This document shows positions 20,536-46,573 of a DNA stretch of 49,001 nt, piece after piece. The notes under the pieces are model-generated. The model had not been told where the DNA came from and did no database searches. It saw only the letters and a program-made list of their open reading frames with translations. Made by a program: the position numbers and the translations under genes. The DNA comes from Roseibium sp. TrichSKD4. GTDB taxonomy: Bacteria > Pseudomonadota > Alphaproteobacteria > Rhizobiales > Stappiaceae. Location of the stretch: positions 158,198 through 207,198 of the forward strand of contig NZ_GL476310.1 of NCBI RefSeq assembly GCF_000148725.1, read 5' to 3'. The number at the start of each line of letters is the position of its first letter. Within the stretch, counting starts at the first letter, position 1.

Positions 20536-21923
20536 ATGTCCCTTACCCATGATGCCATTGCAGCGCTTGCCCCGGACCAGGCATCTCTGAAAGCTGCCAA
20601 CGGTATGACAAAGCCAAAAAAATGGCCGACGCGTGCACGGTCCGAGGCCGAGCCACTTGTCTGGGGGAGTGCCAAGGTTCGGGCGCAAATCCGTATCGCA
20701 CGGTGTTTGACACTTCAAATCACGGCTATAAGTGCACTTGCCCATCGCGAAAGTTTCCGTGCAAGCATGTTCTTGCCCTGATGTGGATGTACGTTGATGA
20801 TCCGGTGCCATTTCAGCCCGCTGAAACGCCTGACTGGGTTTCGGACTGGCTGGGGCGCAGGAGAACCACCGCATCCGCACCCAAATCGGCACCGCCGAAT
20901 TCTGGCGAGGACAAGTCGCTTACAGCGGCCATGCGTACTGAACCTGAAAAGCCAAACGACCCGAAGGCAGAGGCGCGCAAAAAGGCAGCTGCGGAGAAGC
21001 GGGCACAGGAAACAGAGGCGGCTTTAAAAGGTGCGGCCGACGATCTTGAACAATGGATCGGCGACCAACTCCGCACCGGCCTATCAGCTTTTCTGGAAGA
21101 CATGACAGATCGCTGTCGTGCGATTGCAGCGCGCCTCGTGGATGGTAAGGCTCAGGCGCTCGCAAGCCGTCTTGATGAATTGCCTGCACTTGCTCTTGCT
21201 TATCCCGGAGAAGAACGGATGCAATTGGTTGTGCGTGAGCTTGGAAAAATCGTGCTCTTGCTCGCCGCTTGGCGGCAAAGCCCGGCGGATCCCGAATTAC
21301 GGCGGATGATCGCTACGTCAGAAACGCGAGACAGTCTCTTTGAAAATCCGAATGCGCAGAAGGTGACGTCGGTCTGGGAAGTGGTTGGCGAAGATATTTC
21401 AACCCGGCGGGACGGGATGGTCAGTCAGGCGACATGGCTCATGAACCTTCAATCGAGCGGGCCGCGCTTTGCTGTTCTCCTTGATTTCTTTCCGGCCAGT
21501 CTCGGAAAGCGCTCCAGCGCGGTTGTCATGGGAGAACAACTCCACGCGGAACTGGTCTTTTACCCCGCCAGCCATCCGCTTAGAGCTGTATTAGGAGAGC
21601 GGAAATCAGCACCGGACACACCCTTGCCATGGCCGGAAATCGAGCTGCAGAGTGATCCTCTGCAAAGCTTCTTGGAGATTCAAGATGTAGCGCCCTGGAC
21701 CGGCGTGGCACCGGCGGTTTTGCCCGAGGGGCGGTATTGCAAGAATGGGCCGGAGACGTGGTGGCAGTCTGTTGATGGGCAAATTGCCTTGCCGGTCAAA
21801 AATGCTCCCGATCCGCATACCGCGGGATTTCAATTGCAATCCTCTTTCGGACTTTGGGACGGACTGCGTTTGACACTTCTGTGTGCTCGCACAAATTGGG
21901 GTAGGGTTCAGCTAAATGGTTGA
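20536..21923 (+). pseudogene. SWIM zinc finger protein, one-base frameshift
   Basis: The first gene of the five-gene cluster. The frame from ATG 20536 (MSLTHDAIAALAPDQASLKA) runs to PLVWG, then similarity continues in another frame with ECQGSGANPYRTVFDTSN. The junction is the run GGGGG at 20663-20667; six G would restore one frame of about 462 residues. The SWIM motif follows immediately (CTCPSRKFPCKH, a CxC...CxH zinc site thought to bind nucleic acid or protein). Then comes an Ala/Lys-rich charged linker, a helical region, and a C-terminal beta-rich part. As given, translation from 20536 would end early. The end overlaps the DUF5691 start by eight bases, so coupling is expected. Either a real lesion or a missed base in a homopolymer. 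Confidence 0.82.
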
Positions 21924-23334
21924 TCTAAGCCAGTTTGTGGAGCGCATTCAAAGTCGCTGGATGGTGGGCGGGTCTGCGCAAGAACAAGCGCCTGAGGCTT
22001 GGCGTTCGTTGGCGTCCCAAACAGATAATCCCGACCTTTCGCTATTGGCCTTGGTAGCACAAGCGGCGCAGGTGGGACTTCGGCCTGCACCTGCCAAGGA
22101 TCTCCAGCCTTATCCATCGCTGCCCAAATTGGATTTGCCGCCAGTGTCGGACGCGCAGCGGGGTCTGTTTCGACGCATCTTCTTGCTGGTCAAACCGACC
22201 CGAGAGCAAAGTGATCTTTTACTCAGCTTTCTCGCTGCCCGCGGGTTTACGAGCCATCCGGCGGACTTCATGCCCGCCAATATGGAGAACCTTCCGGCCT
22301 GCTACGCTCCGTGGGAACAATGGAGTGAAAGGCAGGAGGCAGACCTAAGCGAGCTGTCGGCAACCAGTTGGGATGATTTCATGCCGTCGGAGCGGGTTCA
22401 TGCTCTAAGGCAAATCAGGTTGAACAACCCGTCCGCGGCTCGCGACATGTTGGTGGAAAAAGCGGCAGAACTTCCAGCTGAACAAAGATTGCGCGCAGTT
22501 CAGGTTCTTGAAATCGGGCTTGGACCCAATGACGCACCCCATCTGAACAAGCTGCTGGAGACGGACCGCTCAGGAAAGGTCAAGGCCTTGGCGCAATCCT
22601 ATCTGGCGAGACTGGGTTTGCAGCAGGACGAAGGTGACGCGGTCTCGGAACTTGCCGATTTTTTGGAGCTTGGCAAAAGCTGGATTATCCGGCGCAAGGT
22701 GACCGTTCGCCCGAAGAAACTGAAAACATCCGCCCAACACAAACGCCGGGCTGACCTGTTTGAAGCAGTCAGTTTGAATGGTTTGGCTACCGCGCTAGAA
22801 CTTGCCCCGGACATCATCATTGCAGGATGGCAGTTTTCAAATCAGCGAGAGGACCGAGAGTTCTTCGACATGGTTGCTCGCACCGGTTCTGACGATGCTG
22901 TTCGGAGCCTGATGGACAGAATACTGGAAAGCGGTGAAGTGCAGCTCCACGTCATCGGGTCACTGCTTGACCGGCTGACGCCAGCGGACCGGTGGGCACG
23001 CCTGCCGGCAATCATGAAACAAGATGATGAATTGATGGAGGCCGTTCTGGCTTGCGCACGTCATCGCCTTGGAGACTTGAGCCTTGATGTCTTGTCAAAG
23101 TCTCTGCAGGTTAAATCGCTGATTGCCAAGATCAAGGAACAGGCTAAGAGCGACAAGGCCGGGGCTTATGATCATGTCCTGCGCCCCAGCCTTTTCATTC
23201 TGGGCCTTTTGGCAGACCCTCAAGCGGCTACAGCCTTGATCGACACATTTATTGAAGCGGGTTTGTCCCGCGCCGACGCGGCACTGCTTGTCTTGCAGTT
23301 TAACGCCGCTTTGCCCTCCGGAGATATCAAATGA
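21916..23334 (+). CDS. DUF5691 family protein
   Basis: A 472-residue, mostly helical soluble protein that I assign to DUF5691, mainly from its place in this conserved cluster and from its repeat-like helical pattern. The centre (about residues 150-230: LRQIRLNNPSAARDMLVEKA, AEQRLRAVQVLEIGLGPNDAP, GKVKALAQSYLARLGL) looks like HEAT/ARM-type helix pairs, suggesting a protein-binding scaffold. No catalytic motif, signal peptide or membrane segment is seen. ATG 21916 lies inside the end of the SWIM gene and its stop overlaps the ATPase start by four bases, so translation is probably coupled on both sides. Function unknown; an adaptor between the SWIM protein and the ATPase is inference. Confidence 0.65.
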   Translation: MVDLSQFVERIQSRWMVGGSAQEQAPEAWRSLASQTDNPDLSLLALVAQAAQVGLRPAPAKDLQPYPSLPKLDLPPVSDAQRGLFRRIFLLVKPTREQSDLLLSFLAARGFTSHPADFMPANMENLPACYAPWEQWSERQEADLSELSATSWDDFMPSERVHALRQIRLNNPSAARDMLVEKAAELPAEQRLRAVQVLEIGLGPNDAPHLNKLLETDRSGKVKALAQSYLARLGLQQDEGDAVSELADFLELGKSWIIRRKVTVRPKKLKTSAQHKRRADLFEAVSLNGLATALELAPDIIIAGWQFSNQREDREFFDMVARTGSDDAVRSLMDRILESGEVQLHVIGSLLDRLTPADRWARLPAIMKQDDELMEAVLACARHRLGDLSLDVLSKSLQVKSLIAKIKEQAKSDKAGAYDHVLRPSLFILGLLADPQAATALIDTFIEAGLSRADAALLVLQFNAALPSGDIK

Positions 23335-24407
23335 GTGACACGTTGCGGCGTCCGGCCGAGATTACCTATGCAGCCGAAATCGAAGCCCTGAAAGCGGTCG
23401 ATGATCACCCCAAGCCACAAGGTTGGGTTTTGTCTCCGCAATCGGTCATCACTTATGTGATGGGCGGCAAGGCTGGATCAGTTGAAATCAGTGCCAAATA
23501 TGTCGGCAATCGGCGTTTGATTGAAACGGCTGTTGCAACACTGGCGACCGACCGGGCACTGCTTCTTCTCGGAGTTCCGGGAACTGCGAAATCCTGGGTG
23601 TCAGAACATTTGGCCGCTGCCATTTCTGGAAACTCGACATTGGTGATCCAGTGTACTGCCGGAACCGATGAAAATCAGGTGCGTTATGGCTGGAATTACG
23701 CCCAGCTTCTCGCTCATGGCCCGAGCCGGGAAGCCTTGGTGCCGACGCCTCTATTTCGGGCGATGGAAAGCGGAAAACTGTGCCGTCTGGAGGAACTGAC
23801 TCGGATGGGCTCGGATGTGCAGGACACGCTGATAACTGTGCTTTCGGAAAAAATGCTGCCGATCCCGGAACTGAATGACGCGGTGTTTGCAAACCGGGGT
23901 TTCAATGTAATTGCAACGGCCAACGACCGAGACAAGGGCGTAAACGAGTTGTCTGCCGCCCTGAAACGCCGTTTCAATGTTGTGGTCCTGCCACTGCCTG
24001 ACGACATGGACGAAGAGATTGCCATTGTGACAAAGCGGGTTGGAGAGATGGCAAATTCCCTGGATCTACCGGCTCCGAAAAACGTTGCAGAGGAAGTTAC
24101 GCGATTGTTGTCGATCTTCCGCGAATTGCGGTCAGGCGAAACACTGGATGGCAAGACGACCTTGAAAAAGCCGTCCGGAAACCTTTCAACAGCAGAAGCG
24201 ATCGCGGTCACGGTCGGCGGACTGAGCCATGCAGCTTACTTCAACAAAGGGACCCTTTCGGCATATAGCCTTGCGCCCAACGTCATTGGGGCTGTGTTGA
24301 AAGACCCGGTTCAGGACAAGGTGGTTCTTGAAGAATATCTGGAAACGGTCCTGAAAAAACGGCGCGACTATTCCGATTATTATCAGGCATTGACCGAGTT
24401 GGTTTAA
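23331..24407 (+). CDS. MoxR-type AAA+ ATPase
   Basis: A 358-residue AAA+ ATPase of the MoxR/RavA-like kind. Walker A is GVPGTAKS (residues 81-88), with the Ala-Lys-Ser form typical of MoxR; Walker B is LCRLEE (about 150-155); sensor 1 is ATAND (195-199); an arginine-finger region KRRF is at 212-215. A helical lid follows. MoxR ATPases work as hexameric remodelling chaperones, usually with a vWA-domain partner that grips the client; the vWA gene two positions downstream is the obvious partner here. The ATG overlaps the DUF5691 stop (ATGA), and the DUF5682 gene starts on the base after this gene's stop. Cytosolic. Client and trigger are unknown. Confidence 0.93.
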   Translation: MSDTLRRPAEITYAAEIEALKAVDDHPKPQGWVLSPQSVITYVMGGKAGSVEISAKYVGNRRLIETAVATLATDRALLLLGVPGTAKSWVSEHLAAAISGNSTLVIQCTAGTDENQVRYGWNYAQLLAHGPSREALVPTPLFRAMESGKLCRLEELTRMGSDVQDTLITVLSEKMLPIPELNDAVFANRGFNVIATANDRDKGVNELSAALKRRFNVVVLPLPDDMDEEIAIVTKRVGEMANSLDLPAPKNVAEEVTRLLSIFRELRSGETLDGKTTLKKPSGNLSTAEAIAVTVGGLSHAAYFNKGTLSAYSLAPNVIGAVLKDPVQDKVVLEEYLETVLKKRRDYSDYYQALTELV

Positions 24408-26594
24408 GTGGCAGCTCCCGTCTCCTATTTCGGCATCAGGCATCACGGACCGGGCTCTGCCCGGCGTCTCGTAGAGGCTTTGGATGAGGTCAGGCCTCAC
24501 GAGGTGCTGATTGAAGGCCCAGCTGATCTCAGCCACCTTTTGCCCATGTTGGCCAGTCCGCAAATAAAGCCTCCGGTCGCGCTTCTCGGCTATCCGGCAA
24601 ATATGCCGGAAAAAACAGTGTTCTGGCCATTTGCAGAGTATTCGCCTGAATACCGGGCGGTCGTGTGGGCCGTTCAAAACTCAGTGCCTGTGCGGTTCAT
24701 TGACTTGCCGGTTTACTGGCGGATTGAGCCTGACGCACAAGACCCCATTGAGCCGGAGGCGGGTGAGGGTGACCCCGCTGAAACGGAGGAACAACAGACG
24801 CTCGAACAGGAAGCCACAGACACGTCAGGGCAGAAGCACCAGGCCAATTCCTTGAGTGGCGATCCGATTGGCGTGTTGGCGGAACTAGCCGGCTATGAAG
24901 ACGGAGAAAGTTGGTGGCAGGATGTCATTGAAGAAAATCCTGCTCCCGGCCCGGTGTTTGAAGCGGTTGAGCAGGCCATCACGGCTCTTCGCGCGCAAGA
25001 GTTCGAGCTTTCAGAACGCGAAGCCGCCCGAGAGGCCCATATGCGGCTTGAAATCAGAAAGACGGTCAAGGACACGGATGGTCCTGTCGCCGTCGTGTGC
25101 GGGGCATGGCATGTGCCAGCATTGAAGGCCAAACATGCGGCCAAGGACGACCGTGCTCTCTTGAAGGGCGCGCCAAAGCAAAAGATCTCTGCAACTTGGG
25201 CACCCTGGACCTCGCCGCGTTTGTCCTTCGCAAGCGGGTATGGGGCAGGGGTTGCTGCACCCGGCTGGAACCAGCACCTCTGGACGGCTGATGACGATAC
25301 TAAGGTCACACGCTGGGTGGCTCGCATTGCGCGCGCCCTGCGGGGGCAGGGGCAAGTTGTTTCAACCGCCTCTCTAATTGAGGCAGAACGCCTTGCAACA
25401 TCGCTGGCGTCCATTCGCAGGCGTCCGCAGCCCGGTTATGAGGAGTTGCGAGACGCCGCAGTCTCTTGTCTATGTTTTGGCAATGGTCTTATCTGGCAAA
25501 CCATTGCAACCGAACTTCTGATTGGGTCTGAGACCGGAGAGATCCCCGATGATGTGCCAATGGCCCCGCTTCTGGAAGACCTTCAGCGTCAGCAGAAAAA
25601 AGCGAAGTTGAAGCCGGAGGCATTGGAGCGAGACCTCTCATTGGACCTGCGGTCTGATAGCGGACTGTTCCGCTCCACCTTATTGCATCGGTTAACAATT
25701 CTGTCGGTGCCATGGGGACGTCCGCTTGACCCCGGCAAAAGCCGTGGCACCTTCCGGGAACGGTGGATGCTGGCTTGGGAACCGGAATATGCGGTTGAGC
25801 TGGTTGAAAACCTGATCTATGGCGCAACCATCGAGCAAGCTGCAAGTGGACGGCTTCAGGCGAAACTCGAAGACTGCCGCGAGCTGGGGCCGCTGGCTGA
25901 TCTCGTCTTCAATGCCATGACAGCGCAATTGCCGGAAGCAGCCGCGCGCGGTGTTCAGCTTTTGGGAGATCGGGCCGGTCAAACTTCTGATTGCAATGAA
26001 CTTTTGTCCGCGCTTCCAGCTCTTGCTGATATTCTGCGTTATGGCGCAGCCCGGGAGCTGGATACTGTTCAGCTTGGTACCTTGTTTGAGCGAATTGCCA
26101 CTCAAGGCGCGCTTGCTCTGCCCTATGCTGTGCGAGGTCTCGACACAGAAACATCCGAGGCCATGCGCGCCAAAATACAGGCTGTAAATAATGCAATTGG
26201 GCTGCTGGACGATCTGAAGGACTTGCAGCAGGCATGGCAAAACGCACTTCATGCAATCGTGGATGAAGCGCACGCAAATCGTTTGATTTCTGGTTTGGCC
26301 GCCCGGCTGCTCTACGAAGCAGATTTGATGACCTCGGACAATGCCGTAGATCTTCTGGCTCGCATGCTGTCTCCTGGAACGGAAACAAAAGATGCCGCAG
26401 CCTTTTTTGCCGGGTTCTTGGAAGGGGCGGGGCAGCGCCTTCTTTATGATGAGGGTTTACGCGCCTGCGTGGACGCTTGGCTCATCGGTCTGGAAGAAGA
26501 TGCGTTTACCGAGCATCTCCCACTGTTTCGGCGCGTTTTTTCCCAGATGGACAAAAGTGAGCGTCGCCGCTTGATGGATGCACTGTTCGGATGA
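24408..26594 (+). CDS. DUF5682 (TraB/EreA-like) protein
   Basis: A 728-residue protein of the DUF5682 family. The N-terminal 240 residues look like a TraB/ChaN/EreA-type fold: YFGIRHHGPGSARR (7-20), then HEVLIEGPADLSHLLP, and a second histidine motif VVCGAWHVPALK (about 229-240), together giving the GxRH and GxxH pair that forms the putative metal-dependent site. An acidic low-complexity stretch (about 107-145) is inserted in this domain. The C-terminal two-thirds is helical, with WGRPLDPGKSRGTFRERWMLAWEPE near 450, a segment I recall as family-typical. GTG 24408 directly follows the ATPase stop. Reaction unknown; a hydrolase or peptidase-like role activated by the ATPase is inference. Confidence 0.8.
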   Translation: MAAPVSYFGIRHHGPGSARRLVEALDEVRPHEVLIEGPADLSHLLPMLASPQIKPPVALLGYPANMPEKTVFWPFAEYSPEYRAVVWAVQNSVPVRFIDLPVYWRIEPDAQDPIEPEAGEGDPAETEEQQTLEQEATDTSGQKHQANSLSGDPIGVLAELAGYEDGESWWQDVIEENPAPGPVFEAVEQAITALRAQEFELSEREAAREAHMRLEIRKTVKDTDGPVAVVCGAWHVPALKAKHAAKDDRALLKGAPKQKISATWAPWTSPRLSFASGYGAGVAAPGWNQHLWTADDDTKVTRWVARIARALRGQGQVVSTASLIEAERLATSLASIRRRPQPGYEELRDAAVSCLCFGNGLIWQTIATELLIGSETGEIPDDVPMAPLLEDLQRQQKKAKLKPEALERDLSLDLRSDSGLFRSTLLHRLTILSVPWGRPLDPGKSRGTFRERWMLAWEPEYAVELVENLIYGATIEQAASGRLQAKLEDCRELGPLADLVFNAMTAQLPEAAARGVQLLGDRAGQTSDCNELLSALPALADILRYGAARELDTVQLGTLFERIATQGALALPYAVRGLDTETSEAMRAKIQAVNNAIGLLDDLKDLQQAWQNALHAIVDEAHANRLISGLAARLLYEADLMTSDNAVDLLARMLSPGTETKDAAAFFAGFLEGAGQRLLYDEGLRACVDAWLIGLEEDAFTEHLPLFRRVFSQMDKSERRRLMDALFG

Positions 26595-26694
26595 GTACAG
26601 AGTGGAGGTGTCCGGCTTGTTGCAGCTCCTGATGCCAAAGCGCGCTGGGTGGCCCATTTTGAAATCTTATCCGGCATTTTGACGGGAGAGCAGC

Positions 26695-27867
26695 ATGGAT
26701 GATCGCGGACGCCGTTGGCGGTTGGCTTTGGGTGGAGATGATGAGGCTTTGACAGGGCGGGATCAACGCCTGTCTGCGGCTCTGAGCGCGCTTTATAACG
26801 CTGACGATGAGCCGAGTGGAAAGGGTGGTAAATCCAAACGTGGCGGGCTCGGCAGTTCGTCTCCCAAAGTTGCCCGCTGGCTCGGTGATATTCGCGAGTT
26901 TTTCCCGTCCCCTGTTGTTCAGGTCGTACAGAAAGACGCGTTTGATCGCCTTGGGCTGCGGCAAATGCTGATGGAACCGGAATTTCTCGCGGTCATGGAG
27001 GCCGACGTCAATCTCGTCGCCGATCTGGTGTCGATGCGCGGTGTCATGCCGGAGAAGACCAAGGAAACAGCGCGCGAAGTCATCGCCAAAGTTGTGGCTG
27101 AATTGATGGAACGGCTGGAACGGCGGACAGCAGAGGCATTGCGCGGGGCGGTCGATAAATCCAAACGCACGTTTCGGCCACGTTTTGCTGACATTGATTG
27201 GCCGCGCACCATTCGAGCGAACCTTCATAACTATCAGGCAGATCACAAGACCATCGTTCCTGAAAAACTGATCGGCTTCATGCGTCGTCAGCGCCGGATA
27301 GTCGATCTGGATGAAGTGATCCTTTGCGTGGATCAATCTGGTTCGATGGCCTCGTCCGTTGTCTATGCCTCCATCTTCGCGGCGGTCATGGCCTCGCTTC
27401 CGGTGGTGGCAACCAAACTGGTGTGCTTCGATACAGCCATACTGGACCTCACTGACGATTTGGCCGATCCGGTTGAGGTCCTCTTCGGTGTTCAGCTTGG
27501 CGGTGGAACGGACATCAATCATGCTGTCGCCTATTGCGAAGACAAGATCGAGAAGCCGTCCAAATCGCATCTGCTCTTGATTACCGATCTTTATGAGGGC
27601 GGAAACGCGGAAGAACTTGTTGCCCGGATCGCGCGTTTACAAGGGCAAGGGGTGAACGTGATTGTCCTCCTGGCCCTGACCGATACAGGGAACCCTTTTT
27701 ACAATCCCGCACTGTCTGCAACGGTCGCCGCGCTTGGCGTACCTGTCTTTGCTGCCACTCCAGATCAGTTTCCTGACCTCATGGCGTGTGCCTTGCGCCG
27801 CGAAGACATCCACCAATGGGCGGCCGGTCAGGACATCAAGACGATTAGACCGGACGAAGGTGCGTGA
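26695..27867 (+). CDS. vWA-domain protein, MoxR partner
   Basis: A 390-residue protein with a C-terminal von Willebrand A domain (about residues 205-375) containing a complete MIDAS metal site: DQSGS (213-217), Thr 272 in GGGTD, and Asp 298 in LITDLYEGG. The N-terminal 200 residues are helical and highly charged (SGKGGKSKRGG about 41-51; RERWL-like and FMRRQRR segments), like the ViaA/CoxE-type vWA proteins that work with MoxR ATPases as adaptor subunits. GGGAGAG upstream of ATG 26695 supports the start; a 100-base gap separates it from DUF5682. It is the last gene of the cluster and converges with a SnoaL-like gene 40 bases on. Role: probable client- or metal-dependent adaptor for the ATPase. 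Confidence 0.9.
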   Translation: MDDRGRRWRLALGGDDEALTGRDQRLSAALSALYNADDEPSGKGGKSKRGGLGSSSPKVARWLGDIREFFPSPVVQVVQKDAFDRLGLRQMLMEPEFLAVMEADVNLVADLVSMRGVMPEKTKETAREVIAKVVAELMERLERRTAEALRGAVDKSKRTFRPRFADIDWPRTIRANLHNYQADHKTIVPEKLIGFMRRQRRIVDLDEVILCVDQSGSMASSVVYASIFAAVMASLPVVATKLVCFDTAILDLTDDLADPVEVLFGVQLGGGTDINHAVAYCEDKIEKPSKSHLLLITDLYEGGNAEELVARIARLQGQGVNVIVLLALTDTGNPFYNPALSATVAALGVPVFAATPDQFPDLMACALRREDIHQWAAGQDIKTIRPDEGA

Positions 27868-27907: not shown

Positions 27908-28900
27908 TTATGCTTTGCTATTGGATTCTTCTATCAGGTCACGGCCCATTTGCTGGAAGAGGTCGAGGTAATCGAGAAGCACCCAGTTCTCCATGATCTT
28001 GCCGGACGCGCAGCGATAGAAATCCATAACGCGCAAGGTCAGCGATTTGCCGGAAGCCGGTTCTCCAAGATAGTCACCTTGGTGCGTCATGGTCATGGAG
28101 GGCCAACCGCTGACAGCGGCGAAATTCCCATTGCCTATCCGGCAATAGTGATCCCCGCCAACCCGGTCCGGAAATGCTGTCAGGAATGATGCCCTGTGAT
28201 CCTTTTCAAACCCGCTCCAACGATAATTGGAGCCGATGCCTCCGGGTCCGTACCAGAGCATGTCATCATGCCAATACCCTTCGTCGCCAGTTTGCCCCTT
28301 TGAGGTGAAAGTCTCCGGGTCGAAGGCCTTTAGGTCCGCCAGCATGGCCTCGCAAAGGTCCAGTGTTTTCTCGCCGTCTGCTTGCTCGGCAGGTAAAACG
28401 CCATCATGGGTTGCTGGTCCTGGGAACAGCATCTCGGTTCCGAGCATTTGCGGAAGCGGAAAACGGCCTGTCTGGCGCATAAGGTCCAGCAAATCGAGTA
28501 TGATCTTGGCTTCTGATATCTGACCATCCGGTTCGATGCGGTAGAATTCTCCCGCTCTCAAAAACACTAGGTGCCCGGATGGTTTGATCCCGAACAGTGG
28601 CACTTCAAAATTCCCGACGTAATGCGTGACGCTGGCAATCCAGTGGCCGCCCGGTTCGCGACGGTTCGGCCCGCCTATGAAAATCTCATCCCGCCGGCGA
28701 ATGTGAGATAGGGCGCTTTGCAGTGGCTCAAAAAAGCCGCTCAAGACAGCGTCGCGACCAGAGAGGCGATTGACCGGACAGGCCACGTCAAAAACCACAT
28801 CTTCTCGCAAGTGTCTGGAAATTAGATTCATTCTTTCACTTGGGTCAGCCGTCCGAAAGGAGTTCAGAAAGCTATGTGGTGCGAGGCGAAAGTCGGACAT
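27908..28900 (-). CDS. Double SnoaL/NTF2-like protein
   Basis: A 330-residue protein made of two SnoaL/ester-cyclase-like (NTF2-fold) halves. The first covers about 15-150 (SERMNLISRHLREDVVFDVACP, then RAGEFYRIEPDGQISEAKII). The second covers about 190-325 (WHDDMLWYGPGGIGSNYRWSG, AFPDRVGGDHYCRIGNGNFAAVSGWPSM, then NWVLLDYLDLFQQMGRDL). The ending motif and an internal PGPATHDGVLP segment are shared with the protein at 35345, so they are paralogues. ATG 28898-28900 is preferred; an upstream ATG would lie within the operator palindrome. It is transcribed away from the ABC importer operon, with two operator palindromes between, so it belongs to the same LacI regulon. SnoaL proteins bind or isomerise small substrates; the true activity here is unknown. 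Confidence 0.8.
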   Translation of the reverse strand: MSDFRLAPHSFLNSFRTADPSERMNLISRHLREDVVFDVACPVNRLSGRDAVLSGFFEPLQSALSHIRRRDEIFIGGPNRREPGGHWIASVTHYVGNFEVPLFGIKPSGHLVFLRAGEFYRIEPDGQISEAKIILDLLDLMRQTGRFPLPQMLGTEMLFPGPATHDGVLPAEQADGEKTLDLCEAMLADLKAFDPETFTSKGQTGDEGYWHDDMLWYGPGGIGSNYRWSGFEKDHRASFLTAFPDRVGGDHYCRIGNGNFAAVSGWPSMTMTHQGDYLGEPASGKSLTLRVMDFYRCASGKIMENWVLLDYLDLFQQMGRDLIEESNSKA

Positions 28901-28944
28901 CAGATTGCCTGAGTAACATTGGTGGGACTGCCACTTGTAACAAA

Positions 28945-28962
28945 TTTGCATTCGTATGCAAA
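28945..28962. promoter_or_regulatory. Probable LacI-family operator 1
   Basis: TTTGCATTCGTATGCAAA is an 18-base palindrome with a single mismatched pair and the central CG step typical of LacI-family operators. It lies between the divergent SnoaL-like gene and the ABC importer operon, overlapping the probable promoter of the former. Confidence 0.7.
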
Positions 28963-29051: not shown

Positions 29052-30107
29052 GTGGCTGAAATTCAGCTCAAAAACGTATCAAAGCGATGGGGAAGTTTTG
29101 TCGGTGTTGACGACTTTAACCTGACCATCGCTGACCGTGAGTTTCTCGTGCTTCTGGGGCCGTCCGGCTGTGGGAAGACCACGACCATGCGCATGATCGC
29201 AGGGTTGGAAGATGTCACAGATGGAGAGATCGTCATTGGCGAACAGGTCGTCAACGACCTTGATCCCAAGGATCGGGATATCGCGATGGTGTTCCAGTCC
29301 TACGGCCTTTATCCGAACATGAATGTTTATGAGAACATTCGCTTTCCGCTGAAGGTGCGCAAGGTCGATCCCGCGACCCACGATGAACGGGTCATGCGCG
29401 CAGCGGGTATGGTAGAGCTGGAAGAGTTCCTCCATCGAAAGCCTGCCGAACTTTCGGGCGGCCAGCGCCAACGTGTTGCGCTGGCGCGGGCGATCGTGCG
29501 CGAGCCGAATGTCTTCCTGATGGATGAACCTCTGTCGAACCTTGATGCGAAACTGCGTGTCTCGACAAGGGCCCAAATCAAGAACTTGCAGCACGAACTC
29601 AAGACCACCACCATTTATGTGACCCATGATCAGATCGAGGCAATGACCTTGGCAGATCGGGTTGTTGTTATGAAGAAGGGTCTGATCCAGCAGGTCGGCT
29701 CGCCTACGGAAATCTACGACAAGCCAGCCAACACGTTTGTTGCCGGATTTATTGGGTCGCCCGCCATGAACCTGATGGACGGGGTTCTGGAGGGCGGAAC
29801 ATTTTCCGCAGAAAACGTGAAAATATCCGGACTTGATGGCCCCGATGGTCCCGTCACGCTGGGATTCCGCGCTGAAGACGCTTCGGTCGCGACGGATCAA
29901 GAGTCGGGGGAAGTCGTTGCCCCGGTTTACACGATGGAGCTCCTTGGCGATGCAACGATGATCACGGTCAAGGCAGGCGGAGCCCTTGTGTCCGTGAAGG
30001 CGCACAAGGACTTTCGTATCGAAATTGATGACCAGGTGGAACTCAGCATTCCAGCGGGCATCTGTCACCTCTTCAATCACGAGACTGGGATGCGCATCGA
30101 CGCTTAA
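29052..30107 (+). CDS. ABC importer ATP-binding protein (MsmX/UgpC-like)
   Basis: A 351-residue nucleotide-binding subunit of a carbohydrate-type ABC importer (CUT1 class). It has Walker A GPSGCGKTT (about residues 37-45), the Q-loop in MVFQSYGLYP, the signature LSGGQRQRVALARAI, Walker B VFLMDEPLSNLDAK, and the H-loop in VTHDQIEAM. The C-terminal 110 residues form the TOBE regulatory domain. GTG 29052 is chosen over an earlier ATG because GGAGGGG lies just upstream and the family N-terminus (AEIQLKNVSKRWG) begins there. It is the first gene of an operon with its own solute-binding protein and two permeases, directly downstream of operator 2. Confidence 0.95.
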   Translation: MAEIQLKNVSKRWGSFVGVDDFNLTIADREFLVLLGPSGCGKTTTMRMIAGLEDVTDGEIVIGEQVVNDLDPKDRDIAMVFQSYGLYPNMNVYENIRFPLKVRKVDPATHDERVMRAAGMVELEEFLHRKPAELSGGQRQRVALARAIVREPNVFLMDEPLSNLDAKLRVSTRAQIKNLQHELKTTTIYVTHDQIEAMTLADRVVVMKKGLIQQVGSPTEIYDKPANTFVAGFIGSPAMNLMDGVLEGGTFSAENVKISGLDGPDGPVTLGFRAEDASVATDQESGEVVAPVYTMELLGDATMITVKAGGALVSVKAHKDFRIEIDDQVELSIPAGICHLFNHETGMRIDA

Positions 30108-30183
30108 CCCGTCCGACCGGCAAAATTGCCAAACATCCAGAGACGCGCCATGTGCGCACGGAACACCAGGGAGACCTGATCTA

Positions 30184-31416
30184 ATGTTGAAAAAACTGCT
30201 TCTCGCCGGCGCAATGTCGCTGGCAGCCAGCACGGCCTATGCAAACTGCGGCATCGAGGAAGGCCGCATCAGCATCATCGGCAATGAGTTTCCGGCCATT
30301 CAAACTGTTGGAGCAGGGGCGCTTGCCTGCGGCTCTGAAACGGTCGAGGCGAAGTCAAACCTGACGGCCGATCACCAGAAGCTCAATGTAGCGGGCATGA
30401 GTGGAAATCCGGCGGAATACACCACCGCGATTATTGCGAATTCCTCCATCGTTGCGCTGATGAATGAAGACGTAATTCGTCCGCTGGATGATTTGGTCGC
30501 AAAGCATGGCGGTGATCTGAAAAAGACCCAGTTGATCACCATCAACGGCAAGATCATGGCGGTCGCCTTCATGGCCAATGCCCAGCATTTGGTTTACCGG
30601 AAGGACGTGCTGGACGAAGCGGGTGTCGAGCCGCCAAAGACCTATGAAGGAATGCTCGAAGCAGCCAAGGTGATCCGTGAAAAGGGTCTGATGGACAACC
30701 CGGTCGGCGGTGCATATGCCGCAGGTTGGAACCTTGCCCAGGAATTCAACAACATGTTCCTTGGCTACGGTGGTCAGCATTTCAAGGCTGGGTCCGCAGA
30801 GCCGAACGTGAACACACCGGAAGGTGTGAAGGCGCTTGAGATGATGAAAGCGCTCAGTGCCTATATGAACCCGGACTTCCTGACACACGATTCCAACGCC
30901 ACCAATGCGGAATATCGTGCGGGCAATGTTGCTCTGATGAATATGTGGGGGTCGAGGGCCGCCACGCTGACATCTGCTGAAGGGGTGCCGCAAGAAGTCG
31001 TTGATGGATTTGCAATCGCCGGTCCAATGACCGTCGGCGGAGGCTCAACACCGGCCACGACCTTGTGGTGGGATGGCTGGACCGTTGCAAAGAACATCAG
31101 CGATGCGGAAGCCGAGGCAACGTTCGTTGCAATGAAAAAGGCGATCGACCCGTCAATCCTGAAGGATTCGGAAGTTGCGCAACAGGCAGTTTGGCTGATC
31201 GATGGCTATGAGCCGACCGATAAGGCTGTAGGTGTCTTTGAGGCCGCAAAAGCAGGCTCCATACCTTATCCAATGCTGCCTTACATGGGCCTGATGCACA
31301 CCGCGCTGGGCAATGAGCTGGCTGACTTCATGCAAGGCAAGGAAAGCGCCGAGCAGGCCCTGAAGGACGTGGAAGCAGCCTACACGGCCGCGGCCAAGGA
31401 AAAAGGTTTCCTCTAA
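30184..31416 (+). CDS. ABC solute-binding protein, family 1
   Basis: A 410-residue periplasmic binding protein. Signal peptide MLKKLLLAGAMSLAASTAYA is cleaved before Asn-Cys (about residue 21). The mature protein has the two-lobe pattern of CUT1-type binding proteins: NEFPAIQTVGAGALACG strand near the N-terminus, the AVAFMANAQHLVYRKDVLDEAG hinge segment, MNMWGSRAATL, and a WWDGWTVAKN cleft region. Two cysteines in the mature N-terminus (about 23 and 51) may pair. A strong hairpin follows the stop, which fits the need for more binding protein than permease. Ligand unknown; it defines the substrate of this regulon. Confidence 0.92.
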   Translation: MLKKLLLAGAMSLAASTAYANCGIEEGRISIIGNEFPAIQTVGAGALACGSETVEAKSNLTADHQKLNVAGMSGNPAEYTTAIIANSSIVALMNEDVIRPLDDLVAKHGGDLKKTQLITINGKIMAVAFMANAQHLVYRKDVLDEAGVEPPKTYEGMLEAAKVIREKGLMDNPVGGAYAAGWNLAQEFNNMFLGYGGQHFKAGSAEPNVNTPEGVKALEMMKALSAYMNPDFLTHDSNATNAEYRAGNVALMNMWGSRAATLTSAEGVPQEVVDGFAIAGPMTVGGGSTPATTLWWDGWTVAKNISDAEAEATFVAMKKAIDPSILKDSEVAQQAVWLIDGYEPTDKAVGVFEAAKAGSIPYPMLPYMGLMHTALGNELADFMQGKESAEQALKDVEAAYTAAAKEKGFL

Positions 31417-45358: not shown

Positions 45359-46573
45359 ATGATGTTGAGCGATGCCAAAGCGCGGAAAATATAACCTGAT
45401 GACAAACCCATATTGGATGGGTCGATCAAGGGGCTCTATTTGTTTCCTGCCAAGACCCATGGGCAAGGAAAATGGATCTTGCGCTTTACGTCTCCTGAGA
45501 CCGGGAAGCGGCGAGACATGGGTTTGGGGAGCTATCCCACATTCTCGGTAAAACGTGCGCGCGAAATCGCATTCTAAGCACGCAAGCTGATCGACATGAA
45601 AATCGATCCGATTGAAGACCGGGAGCGAGAAGCCAAGGTTCAAAAGGCGCAGATGGAAATGCCGTCTTTCGAAGAAGCGGCCCGAAAGGTCCATGAAGAC
45701 AAGAAGTCAGGGTTCAAGAACGCCAAGCACGCAGAGCAATGGATCAACACGCTCGAGCAGTATGTGTTCCCAGATTTGGGAAGGTCTCTGGTTTCTGAAC
45801 TGACCGCAGCAGATTTCGCCAGAGCTCTGAAGCCCATATGGCTGGAGAAGGCCGAGACTGCGAGCCGCGTCAAGCAGCGATGTGATGCGGTCATGAAGTG
45901 GAGCGCGGCCAGAGGGTATGTGCTTGCCAGTCCCGTCGGTGTCGTTGATCAGCTCCTGCCCAAGCAACCGGGCAAACGGGAACGTGTTGCGCATCAACCT
46001 GCCGTTCCGTGGCGAGATATTCCGGAATTTGTTCAAACGGTCTTGAGGCAGGGGCTTAGAACCAAAGCCAAGATCATGCTCGATGTTCTGATTTTGACGG
46101 CTGCCCGGTCTGGGGAAGTTCGATTGATGGAGTGGTCAGAGCTGGATCTTCAAAATGGTATCTGGATATTGCCCGCCCAGCGCATGAAGGCAAAAACACT
46201 GCATCGGGTTCCGCTATCGCCATATCTTGTCAGCCTCTTTGAGGATCTGCGGAGTTCAGCTTCTCCCGATACATCTCTTGTATTCCCCTCTCGCAAGAAC
46301 ACCCCGATCAGTGACATGACGCTGACGAAGTTTTTGCGGGATCACAAAGTTGCCAGTGACACGCCTGGGCGCTTTGCAACAGCACAAGGTTTTCGTTCCA
46401 GTTTCCGTGATTGGGCGTCAGAAAACGGATACCCACGTGACTTGGCAGAGCGAGCTCTTGCTCACACCATCAAAAACTCCACCGAAGCAGCCTACCACCG
46501 CACAGACCTAATCGAACAACGAAGCGAAATGATGCTTGATTGGGAAGGCTGGGTATTGTGTTGCTGTACCTAA
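45359..46573 (+). pseudogene. Tyrosine integrase (P4/DUF4102 type), two in-frame stops
   Basis: A 404-codon integrase frame with TAA at 45392-45394 (after KARKI) and 45575-45577 (after REIAF). Between and after them the frame is intact: the DUF4102 N-terminal domain (PDDKPILDGSIKGLYLF; MGLGSYPTFSVKRARE), the core-binding domain, and the catalytic domain with Arg in AARSGEVRL, FRSSFRDWA and ALAHTIKNSTEAAYHR, containing the likely active-site His and Tyr. The His usual in HxxR is Gln (QGFRSS). Both stops fit single-base changes of AAA and GAA. A fragment from ATG 45596 would lack the N-terminal arm-binding part. No tRNA or att duplicate was found beside it. It marks an old integration event. 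Confidence 0.85.

Follow-up and report, generated by a model that had tools for sequence, protein, structure and literature searches.

For NorQD, a pair made of a MoxR-type AAA+ ATPase and a von Willebrand factor A (vWA) protein, it has been proposed that the client binds to the metal-ion-dependent adhesion site (MIDAS) of the vWA protein and is driven by the AAA+ ring (PMC9976466). Escherichia coli K-12 has two MoxR ATPases, one of them YehL (PMC3893208), whose subfamily was named in an earlier review cited by the same paper. In the K-12 genome yehL (MoxR), yehM (DUF5682), yehP (vWA) and yehQ (SWIM) stand in a row, with yehI (DUF4132) upstream. Here we analyzed a stretch of 49,001 nucleotides from Roseibium sp. 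TrichSKD4 (contig NZ_GL476310.1; the whole stretch is called the window), which carries a five-gene operon that, judged by sequence comparison, is the DUF5691-type cousin of E. coli yehLMPQ, the closest known system. An earlier note on this DNA had placed the operon with the MoxR-vWA couples, and indeed both families are present and conserved in relatives; the yeh operon went unnamed in it.

The five families (SWIM, DUF5691, MoxR-type AAA_5, DUF5682 and VWA_CoxE) lie in this order on the plus strand, as had been described, and each scores above its Pfam cut-off. From 5' to 3' the junctions are an 8-base overlap, a 4-base overlap, abutting ends and a 100-base gap, so that the three overlapping or abutting junctions noticed earlier are borne out. 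Besides its P-loop the MoxR protein has an EE pair, ATAND and RRF, in line with the Walker A, Walker B and sensor motifs read from it before, and the vWA protein has its complete MIDAS. The predicted solenoid of DUF5691 agrees with its description as HEAT-like, and the His motif pair of DUF5682 that had been likened to TraB/EreA was found as a pair of GxxH motifs. Among family rows, the SWIM finger CxC-x6-CxH is kept in 71 of 71, G-xxx-TAK-S/T in 78 of 78 MoxR rows and DxSGS in 76 of 77 vWA rows. A promoter and terminator scan gave a signal no higher than in shuffles.

The MoxR, DUF5682 and vWA genes are neighbors on a single strand in both the window and E. coli, a SWIM gene lies next to them, and the products of the three are homologous: MoxR is 41% identical to YehL (pairwise, 360 columns), the vWA protein 35% to YehP and DUF5682 25.9% to YehM. 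The accessory genes differ, in that yehQ comes last and is similar to the window SWIM protein in the finger only, while DUF4132 (yehI) lies upstream where the window has DUF5691. DUF4132 has no match within the window, and the possibility that DUF5691 is a divergent DUF4132 found no support in profile comparison (P 0.24). The plasmid-borne relatives examined carry either DUF5691 (L002, L004, L005 and, in fused form, L003) or DUF4132 (L006, L007, L008, L009, L010). Because the E. coli and plasmid relatives share the core and swap DUF5691 for DUF4132, MoxR-DUF5682-vWA is, by sequence comparison, a conserved core with exchangeable accessory parts. Small open reading frames (ORFs) without a Pfam match lie between MoxR and DUF5682 in L003 (7359-7970, 203 amino acids) and L005 (7762-7998, 78 amino acids). 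L010 shows the yeh region with chromosomal neighbors and is probably a chromosome-derived segment, and a DUF5682 match also occurs in eight E. coli entries classed as plasmids, a few of which are as large as a chromosome.

Of 5426 complete E. coli genomes, 5162 contain the E. coli operon over at least 80% of its length, at a median of one place. Part of the region is dispensable in nature, since a transposon sits in the metG/DUF4132/yeh region of a sublineage of sequence type 131 (PMC9334617). Mutations in yehM occur in copper-evolved E. coli (PMC12409786), and a yehQ mutation is among the genes tested for butanol tolerance (PMC6442406); the passages concerned do not establish a role for either gene. 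In the literature searched, mostly without subscription papers, we found no function for yehLMPQ or for the DUF5691-type operon, in agreement with the earlier note, which knew of no assigned function, and no published housekeeping role for the unit.

GTDB genome contigs were scanned with a DUF5682 alignment, which gave at least 593 stretches, 588 of them encoding relatives, and the best 80 were taken as loci L012-L091. Fifty-three of the 80 have at least 5.5 kilobases (kb) upstream and 2.5 kb downstream and were counted (the other 27 were left uncounted); all 53 contain all five families by profiles built for this analysis, the loci having been chosen by similarity to the window protein. The window order on one strand is kept in 38 loci, including L056, with ~4 kb between MoxR and DUF5682, and L047 and L050, where SWIM and DUF5691 are fused. 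SWIM-DUF5691 lies on the opposite strand in seven loci (Streptomycetaceae), and the vWA gene lies some kilobases off on the opposite strand in two (Lentzea). Five Bacteroidota loci (L061, L065, L077, L078, L085) have an extra DUF4132 gene with DUF5691 also present, and the two are therefore not strictly exclusive. In L046 the SWIM part is missing from the automatic gene string because it is fused to DUF5691. One contig of an Akkermansiaceae metagenome-assembled genome (L023) has the rotated order MoxR-DUF5682-vWA-SWIM-DUF5691, and its protein groups with alphaproteobacterial ones.

A less selected sample of 198 genomes, from the phylum of a Streptomyces sampling centre, contained DUF5682 in 17 and DUF5691 above the cut-off in 16, and in all 16 DUF5682 lies on the same contig within ~5 kb; three further genomes have a DUF5691 match under the cut-off and no DUF5682. 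In a sample of 190 genomes from the class to which L012's genome belongs, both families were found in the same two, one of which is the sampling centre, with a third DUF5691 match under the cut-off. DUF5682 is patchy, occurring in 2/190, 17/198, 7/198 and 3/61 genomes of four samples, each count including its sampling centre. These counts show that the five-gene set is more than chance and support the view that the genes form one unit, widespread but patchy in bacteria. This is the opposite of homologues standing mostly as separate genes, the outcome that the earlier note had set against its own proposal of a single operon.

SWIM and DUF5691 form one ORF in L003, L046, L047 and L050 (4 of 76 DUF5691 ORFs), and DUF5682 and VWA_CoxE form one protein in Streptomyces L008; Actinomycetota DUF5682 frames of 1189-1645 amino acids, among which only L008 was checked, may be further fusions. 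Since such fusions occur, the SWIM and DUF5691 proteins likely touch each other, as do DUF5682 and the vWA protein. Divergence is correlated in every one of the ten protein pairs (Spearman 0.70-0.86; maxima under permutation 0.08-0.17); shared ancestry alone yields such a correlation, and it therefore shows joint inheritance and not contact. SWIM and DUF5691 are the fastest diverging and least conserved pair. A quick DUF5682 tree, built with no mixture model and showing long-branch warnings, is clustered by phylum, with 12 changes against a minimum possible of 9 and a shuffled mean of 40.1, and few cross-phylum placements.

All five genes are present in the window, but two of them, SWIM and DUF5682, look damaged as sequenced, which the earlier note had missed. 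SWIM relatives match ~20536-20676 in one frame and ~20664-21920 in another in 29 of the 30 compared in detail (68 had a match), the exception being L050, which matches the second part only. Because the N-terminal and remaining parts match in different frames, the alignments place a frameshift in the SWIM gene near 20660, close to the gene start. A programmed frameshift was ruled out, both parts being in one ORF in 29 of the 30 relatives. The start at 20536 proposed earlier holds as the N-terminus by homology, but the open ORF (20622-21923) is in another frame. For DUF5682, the C-termini of 16 of 18 relatives compared match through the TGA at 26592 in one frame, with ends from 26636 to 26699 (the matches of L023 and L025 end before the TGA), and because this homology continues in the same frame, the window ORF by comparison is ~35 residues short. 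Other copies are intact, such as that of L012, the closest relative and a Roseibium contig, whose DUF5682 is 75% identical and whose DUF5682 gene overlaps the vWA start. Assembly or sequencing error and real decay cannot be told apart as the source of the lesions. The MoxR gene appears split into two overlapping frames in two draft contigs (L025, L029), and frame breaks in this operon are therefore not unique to the window.

Table 1. Features of the operon in the window (positions are those of the window; DUF5682 signature in residue numbers; aa, amino acids).
Feature	Position	Strand	Details
SWIM zinc-finger ORF	20622-21923	+	433 aa as open; PF04434 28.2 bits, cut-off 19.6
SWIM finger CxC-x6-CxH	~20733-20768	+	motif, in open downstream part
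SWIM gene N-terminal piece, other reading frame	20536-20676	+	relatives' SWIM N-termini match
DUF5691 protein, predicted alpha-solenoid (HEAT/ARM-like)	21916-23334	+	472 aa; PF18944 60.2 bits, cut-off 27
MoxR-type AAA+ ATPase, YehL-like	23331-24407	+	358 aa; AAA_5 PF07728 127 bits, cut-off 22
MoxR P-loop GVPGTAKS	23571-23594	+	motif
DUF5682 protein	24408-26594	+	728 aa as open; PF18934 733.6 bits, cut-off 26
DUF5682 TIKI/TraB-like signature	G9xxH12, E36, R208, G232xxH235	+	residue motif
DUF5682 in-frame stop and 3' stretch still matching relatives' C-termini, same frame	26592-26699	+	16/18 relatives
vWA protein (VWA_CoxE)	26695-27867	+	390 aa; PF05762 166.8 bits, cut-off 26.4
vWA MIDAS D-x-S-G-S / T / D	from 27331 / 27508 / 27586	+	motif

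We give about even chances to the reading that the operon encodes an ATP-driven, YehL-type MoxR-vWA remodeler with DUF5682, a putative hydrolase whose N-terminal domain is TIKI/TraB/Ere-like, as its dedicated partner and with SWIM-DUF5691 as its guide. The MoxR hexamer would carry the vWA protein as co-chaperone, the MIDAS of the latter would hold DUF5682, and ATP hydrolysis would switch DUF5682 between inactive and active states or assist in the maturation of its active site, much as NorQD acts on its client. Recognition would fall to a module of the solenoid DUF5691 and the SWIM protein, which would deliver the target (a protein or a nucleic acid) to the machine; in E. coli-type operons DUF4132 would replace DUF5691 in this module. 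DUF5682 is most likely the client or output of MoxR-vWA by analogy, because it adjoins both genes in nearly all loci and is once fused to vWA; SWIM and DUF5691 likely serve recognition, because they are the least conserved pair and sometimes fused. As to its role in the cell, a conditional response to stress or for quality control is more likely than a dedicated anti-phage system.

The putative hydrolase activity is suggested by the residues that DUF5682 conserves. All 61 rows share H12, H13, E36, D99, E175, R208, E209, G232 and H235, and 60 of them have G9; in a nine-row alignment with E. coli-type proteins, H12, E36, D99, R208, E209, G232 and H235 are kept in all nine rows and G9 in eight. 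For comparison we collected TraB rows from relatives' genomes, using seven of the nine places found (L097 was excluded as under the cut-off and L100 as in the wrong frame; a ChaN row, L101, was used for the PDB look-up alone). In these seven rows G17xxH20, E46, R218 and G242xxH245 are invariant. DUF5682 thus has the GxxH, Glu, Arg, GxxH signature of the TIKI/TraB/Ere hydrolases, and the distance from the Arg to the last His is 27 residues in both DUF5682 and the TraB rows. The site of active TIKI-family members is reported as 2His/2Glu, with a conserved basic residue in addition (PMC6254334). The top VIA row for residues 1-247 of the DUF5682 model belongs to a complex in which a TraB-family subunit has been reported; the TraB rows had no sequence match to 8bqs, and the identity of chain DQ is therefore taken from the paper's mention alone. 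On motif and fold, DUF5682 may work like a TIKI hydrolase, membership of the family being not proven; we word this as a motif-plus-fold argument because the profile comparison is weak.

Several observations weigh against the hydrolase and the machine built around it. The first His and the Glu are 26 residues apart in TraB and 24 in DUF5682, and no counterpart of the second Glu of the TIKI site was recognized in DUF5682. When the DUF5682 N-terminus was compared with the seven TraB rows by hhalign, the probability was 4% (P 0.0095; four unrelated controls, 0.093-0.38), and the alignment covers 28 columns, which are the Arg-to-GxxH stretch itself. Full-length DUF5682 gave P 0.024 against TraB, with controls at 0.027 (vWA), 0.044 (DUF5691), 0.59 (SWIM) and 0.66 (MoxR); P was 0.86 in a global alignment and 0.089 in a run including one wrong-frame row. 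No recurring hydrolase superfamily appears among the 25 listed of the 45 Pfam families matched at E ≤ 10 by the 61 DUF5682 rows, and Foldseek returned no PDB match for DUF5682 at E ≤ 0.001. Two of the five genes, SWIM and DUF5682, are damaged in the window copy, and the choice of the 80 loci by similarity favors conserved operons. Finally, our evidence consists of gene set, order, co-occurrence, co-divergence, fusions, conserved motifs and predicted folds; complex formation, catalytic activity, substrate and direction of remodeling are inferred.

DUF5682 could instead be a non-catalytic adaptor or client-binding scaffold, the machine maturing another, unlinked enzyme or complex in the manner of RavA-ViaA and NorQD. 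The known MoxR-vWA pairs do serve metabolic or respiratory clients (PMC9976466, PMC3893208), a TIKI-fold member without the catalytic motif is on record (PMC6254334), and the DUF5682 model is more than half helical, its C-terminal part mostly so. Against this, the putative catalytic residues are invariant in the 61 rows, H12, E36, R208, G232 and H235 even across the E. coli-type proteins, and the sampled flanks show no recurring client gene next to the operon. We regard the scaffold as unlikely.

The earlier note had favored a conflict or stress-response system, and in its anti-invader or abortive form this would have SWIM/DUF5691 sense an invader and MoxR-vWA switch on DUF5682 as a TIKI-like peptidase harming cell or invader. 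The MoxR P-loop is GXXXTAKS in 60 of 78 rows (GVPGTAKT in the other 18), a variant described as peculiar and as often encountered in MoxR-vWA ternary systems of the FtsH and beta-propeller kinds (PMC7159879), which likewise combine MoxR and vWA with a third conserved protein. The window MoxR passes the Pfam bpMoxR cut-off barely (27.5 vs 27 bits; YehL falls under it at 18.4 bits), scores 60.6 bits on the NCBIfam MadB ATPase model, far below the cut-off of 475, and matches PADLOC mad8 weakly (E 0.0012). The DUF5682-vWA fusion of L008 resembles the vWA-peptidase fusions of conflict systems (PMC12839542), vWA-MoxR-VMAP genes have been described close to type III CRISPR loci (PMC10910872), and both the patchiness of DUF5682 across the four samples and the fast divergence of DUF5691 and SWIM would fit such a role.

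The searches aimed at defense point the other way. PADLOC at E ≤ 0.1 has no match for SWIM, DUF5691 or DUF5682, and its matches for MoxR (mad8, 0.0012; IetA, 0.031) and vWA (0.0038) are weak. A motif-seeded scan of viral contigs gave five stretches with the motif and no confirmed relative, and a phage or mobile origin was not upheld; a phage-labeled scaffold from feces marked UNVERIFIED (L011), unannotated and carrying MoxR-DUF5682-vWA, is taken as probably bacterial. For the flanks we surveyed 142 of 180 crude ORF calls (100-899 amino acids, at most two per side; 38 ORFs were left out) at 46 of the 53 loci, the seven Streptomycetaceae loci with divergent SWIM-DUF5691 being excluded because of spurious ORFs. 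PADLOC matches of these 142 proteins at 1e-10 are scattered over 11 families (RtcR-type, mad2, mad3, BrxL, DrmC, type II nickase and others), one with two members and the rest with one; lacking a background rate, this count indicates absence of a recurrent signal and is not a depletion test. The same ORFs matched 128 Pfam families at E ≤ 1e-5, with at most three members each among the 25 listed. With no recurrent defense family in these flanks, a defense island was not upheld.

Moreover, the near-universal E. coli operon is at odds with a conflict system, and DUF5682, as the supposed effector, is not displaced in any of the 53 loci, though these were selected by DUF5682. The third protein here is DUF5682, no variable effectors were seen among these loci, and the main text of the report on those systems does not name SWIM, DUF4132, TIKI, EreA, MolR or TraB (PMC7159879). 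The five proteins have no Pfam match at E ≤ 0.1 to VMAP, iSTAND, FtsH or a beta-propeller component, dedicated VMAP and iSTAND profiles not having been searched. A dedicated anti-phage role is thus not supported, and we consider the conflict reading improbable, to the same degree as the scaffold.

A stress unit tied to DNA damage or nucleic acids, in which SWIM would do the nucleic-acid binding, seems to us the least probable of the alternatives. In its favor, the SWIM finger is kept in every row of its family, and DdrO depletion upregulates a Deinococcus radiodurans operon that includes a DUF4132 gene (PMC8533742). However, according to the passage the Deinococcus genes are not upregulated in irradiated cells of the cited irrE deletion (PMC8533742). 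They were also not shown to belong to an operon of the SWIM/MoxR/DUF5682/vWA type, and no damage-response family is prominent among the flank families listed. SWIM fingers bind proteins too, which counts against the idea as well.

Directly beyond the operon lies a gene for a SnoaL-like-domain protein on the minus strand (27911-28951), followed by a 384-amino-acid minus-strand ORF (29082-30233) that has no Pfam match, overlaps plus-strand ORFs and may be spurious. A phage-type integrase gene (45596-46570) lies after a capsule-synthesis-like gene at the end of the window with the lowest G+C content (0.47-0.50), a possible island edge.

In summary, the operon is real, widespread and functionally uncharacterized, an ordinary find but useful as a lead, since its function can be tested directly through the proposed catalytic residues. 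The yeh operon stands in nearly all complete E. coli genomes, yet the literature searched holds no function for it; with the DUF5682 signature, the hydrolase question can be put to a laboratory strain by point mutation, and the exchange of DUF5691 and DUF4132 points to the recognition module. A bolder version of the remodeler reading, which we consider rather unlikely, is a new class of remodeler-gated hydrolase in which a MoxR-vWA ring would feed or switch DUF5682 as a TIKI-fold peptidase or esterase, a swappable solenoid (DUF5691/DUF4132) and the SWIM finger would select the target, and E. coli yeh would be the model member. If MoxR-vWA does gate a hydrolase, an enzymatic output would be added to a couple described mainly as chaperones.

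Set beside the known systems, the operon shares its signature with the TIKI/TraB/Ere hydrolases and differs from them in the large helical part attached to DUF5682, in its place within a MoxR-vWA operon and in a profile homology that is not significant. With RavA-ViaA and NorQ-NorD it has in common a MoxR AAA+ ATPase and a MIDAS-bearing vWA protein; it departs from RavA-ViaA in that the window vWA protein scores 15.7 bits on the ViaA equivalog model (cut-off 500), and from both pairs in its additional DUF5682, DUF5691 and SWIM genes.

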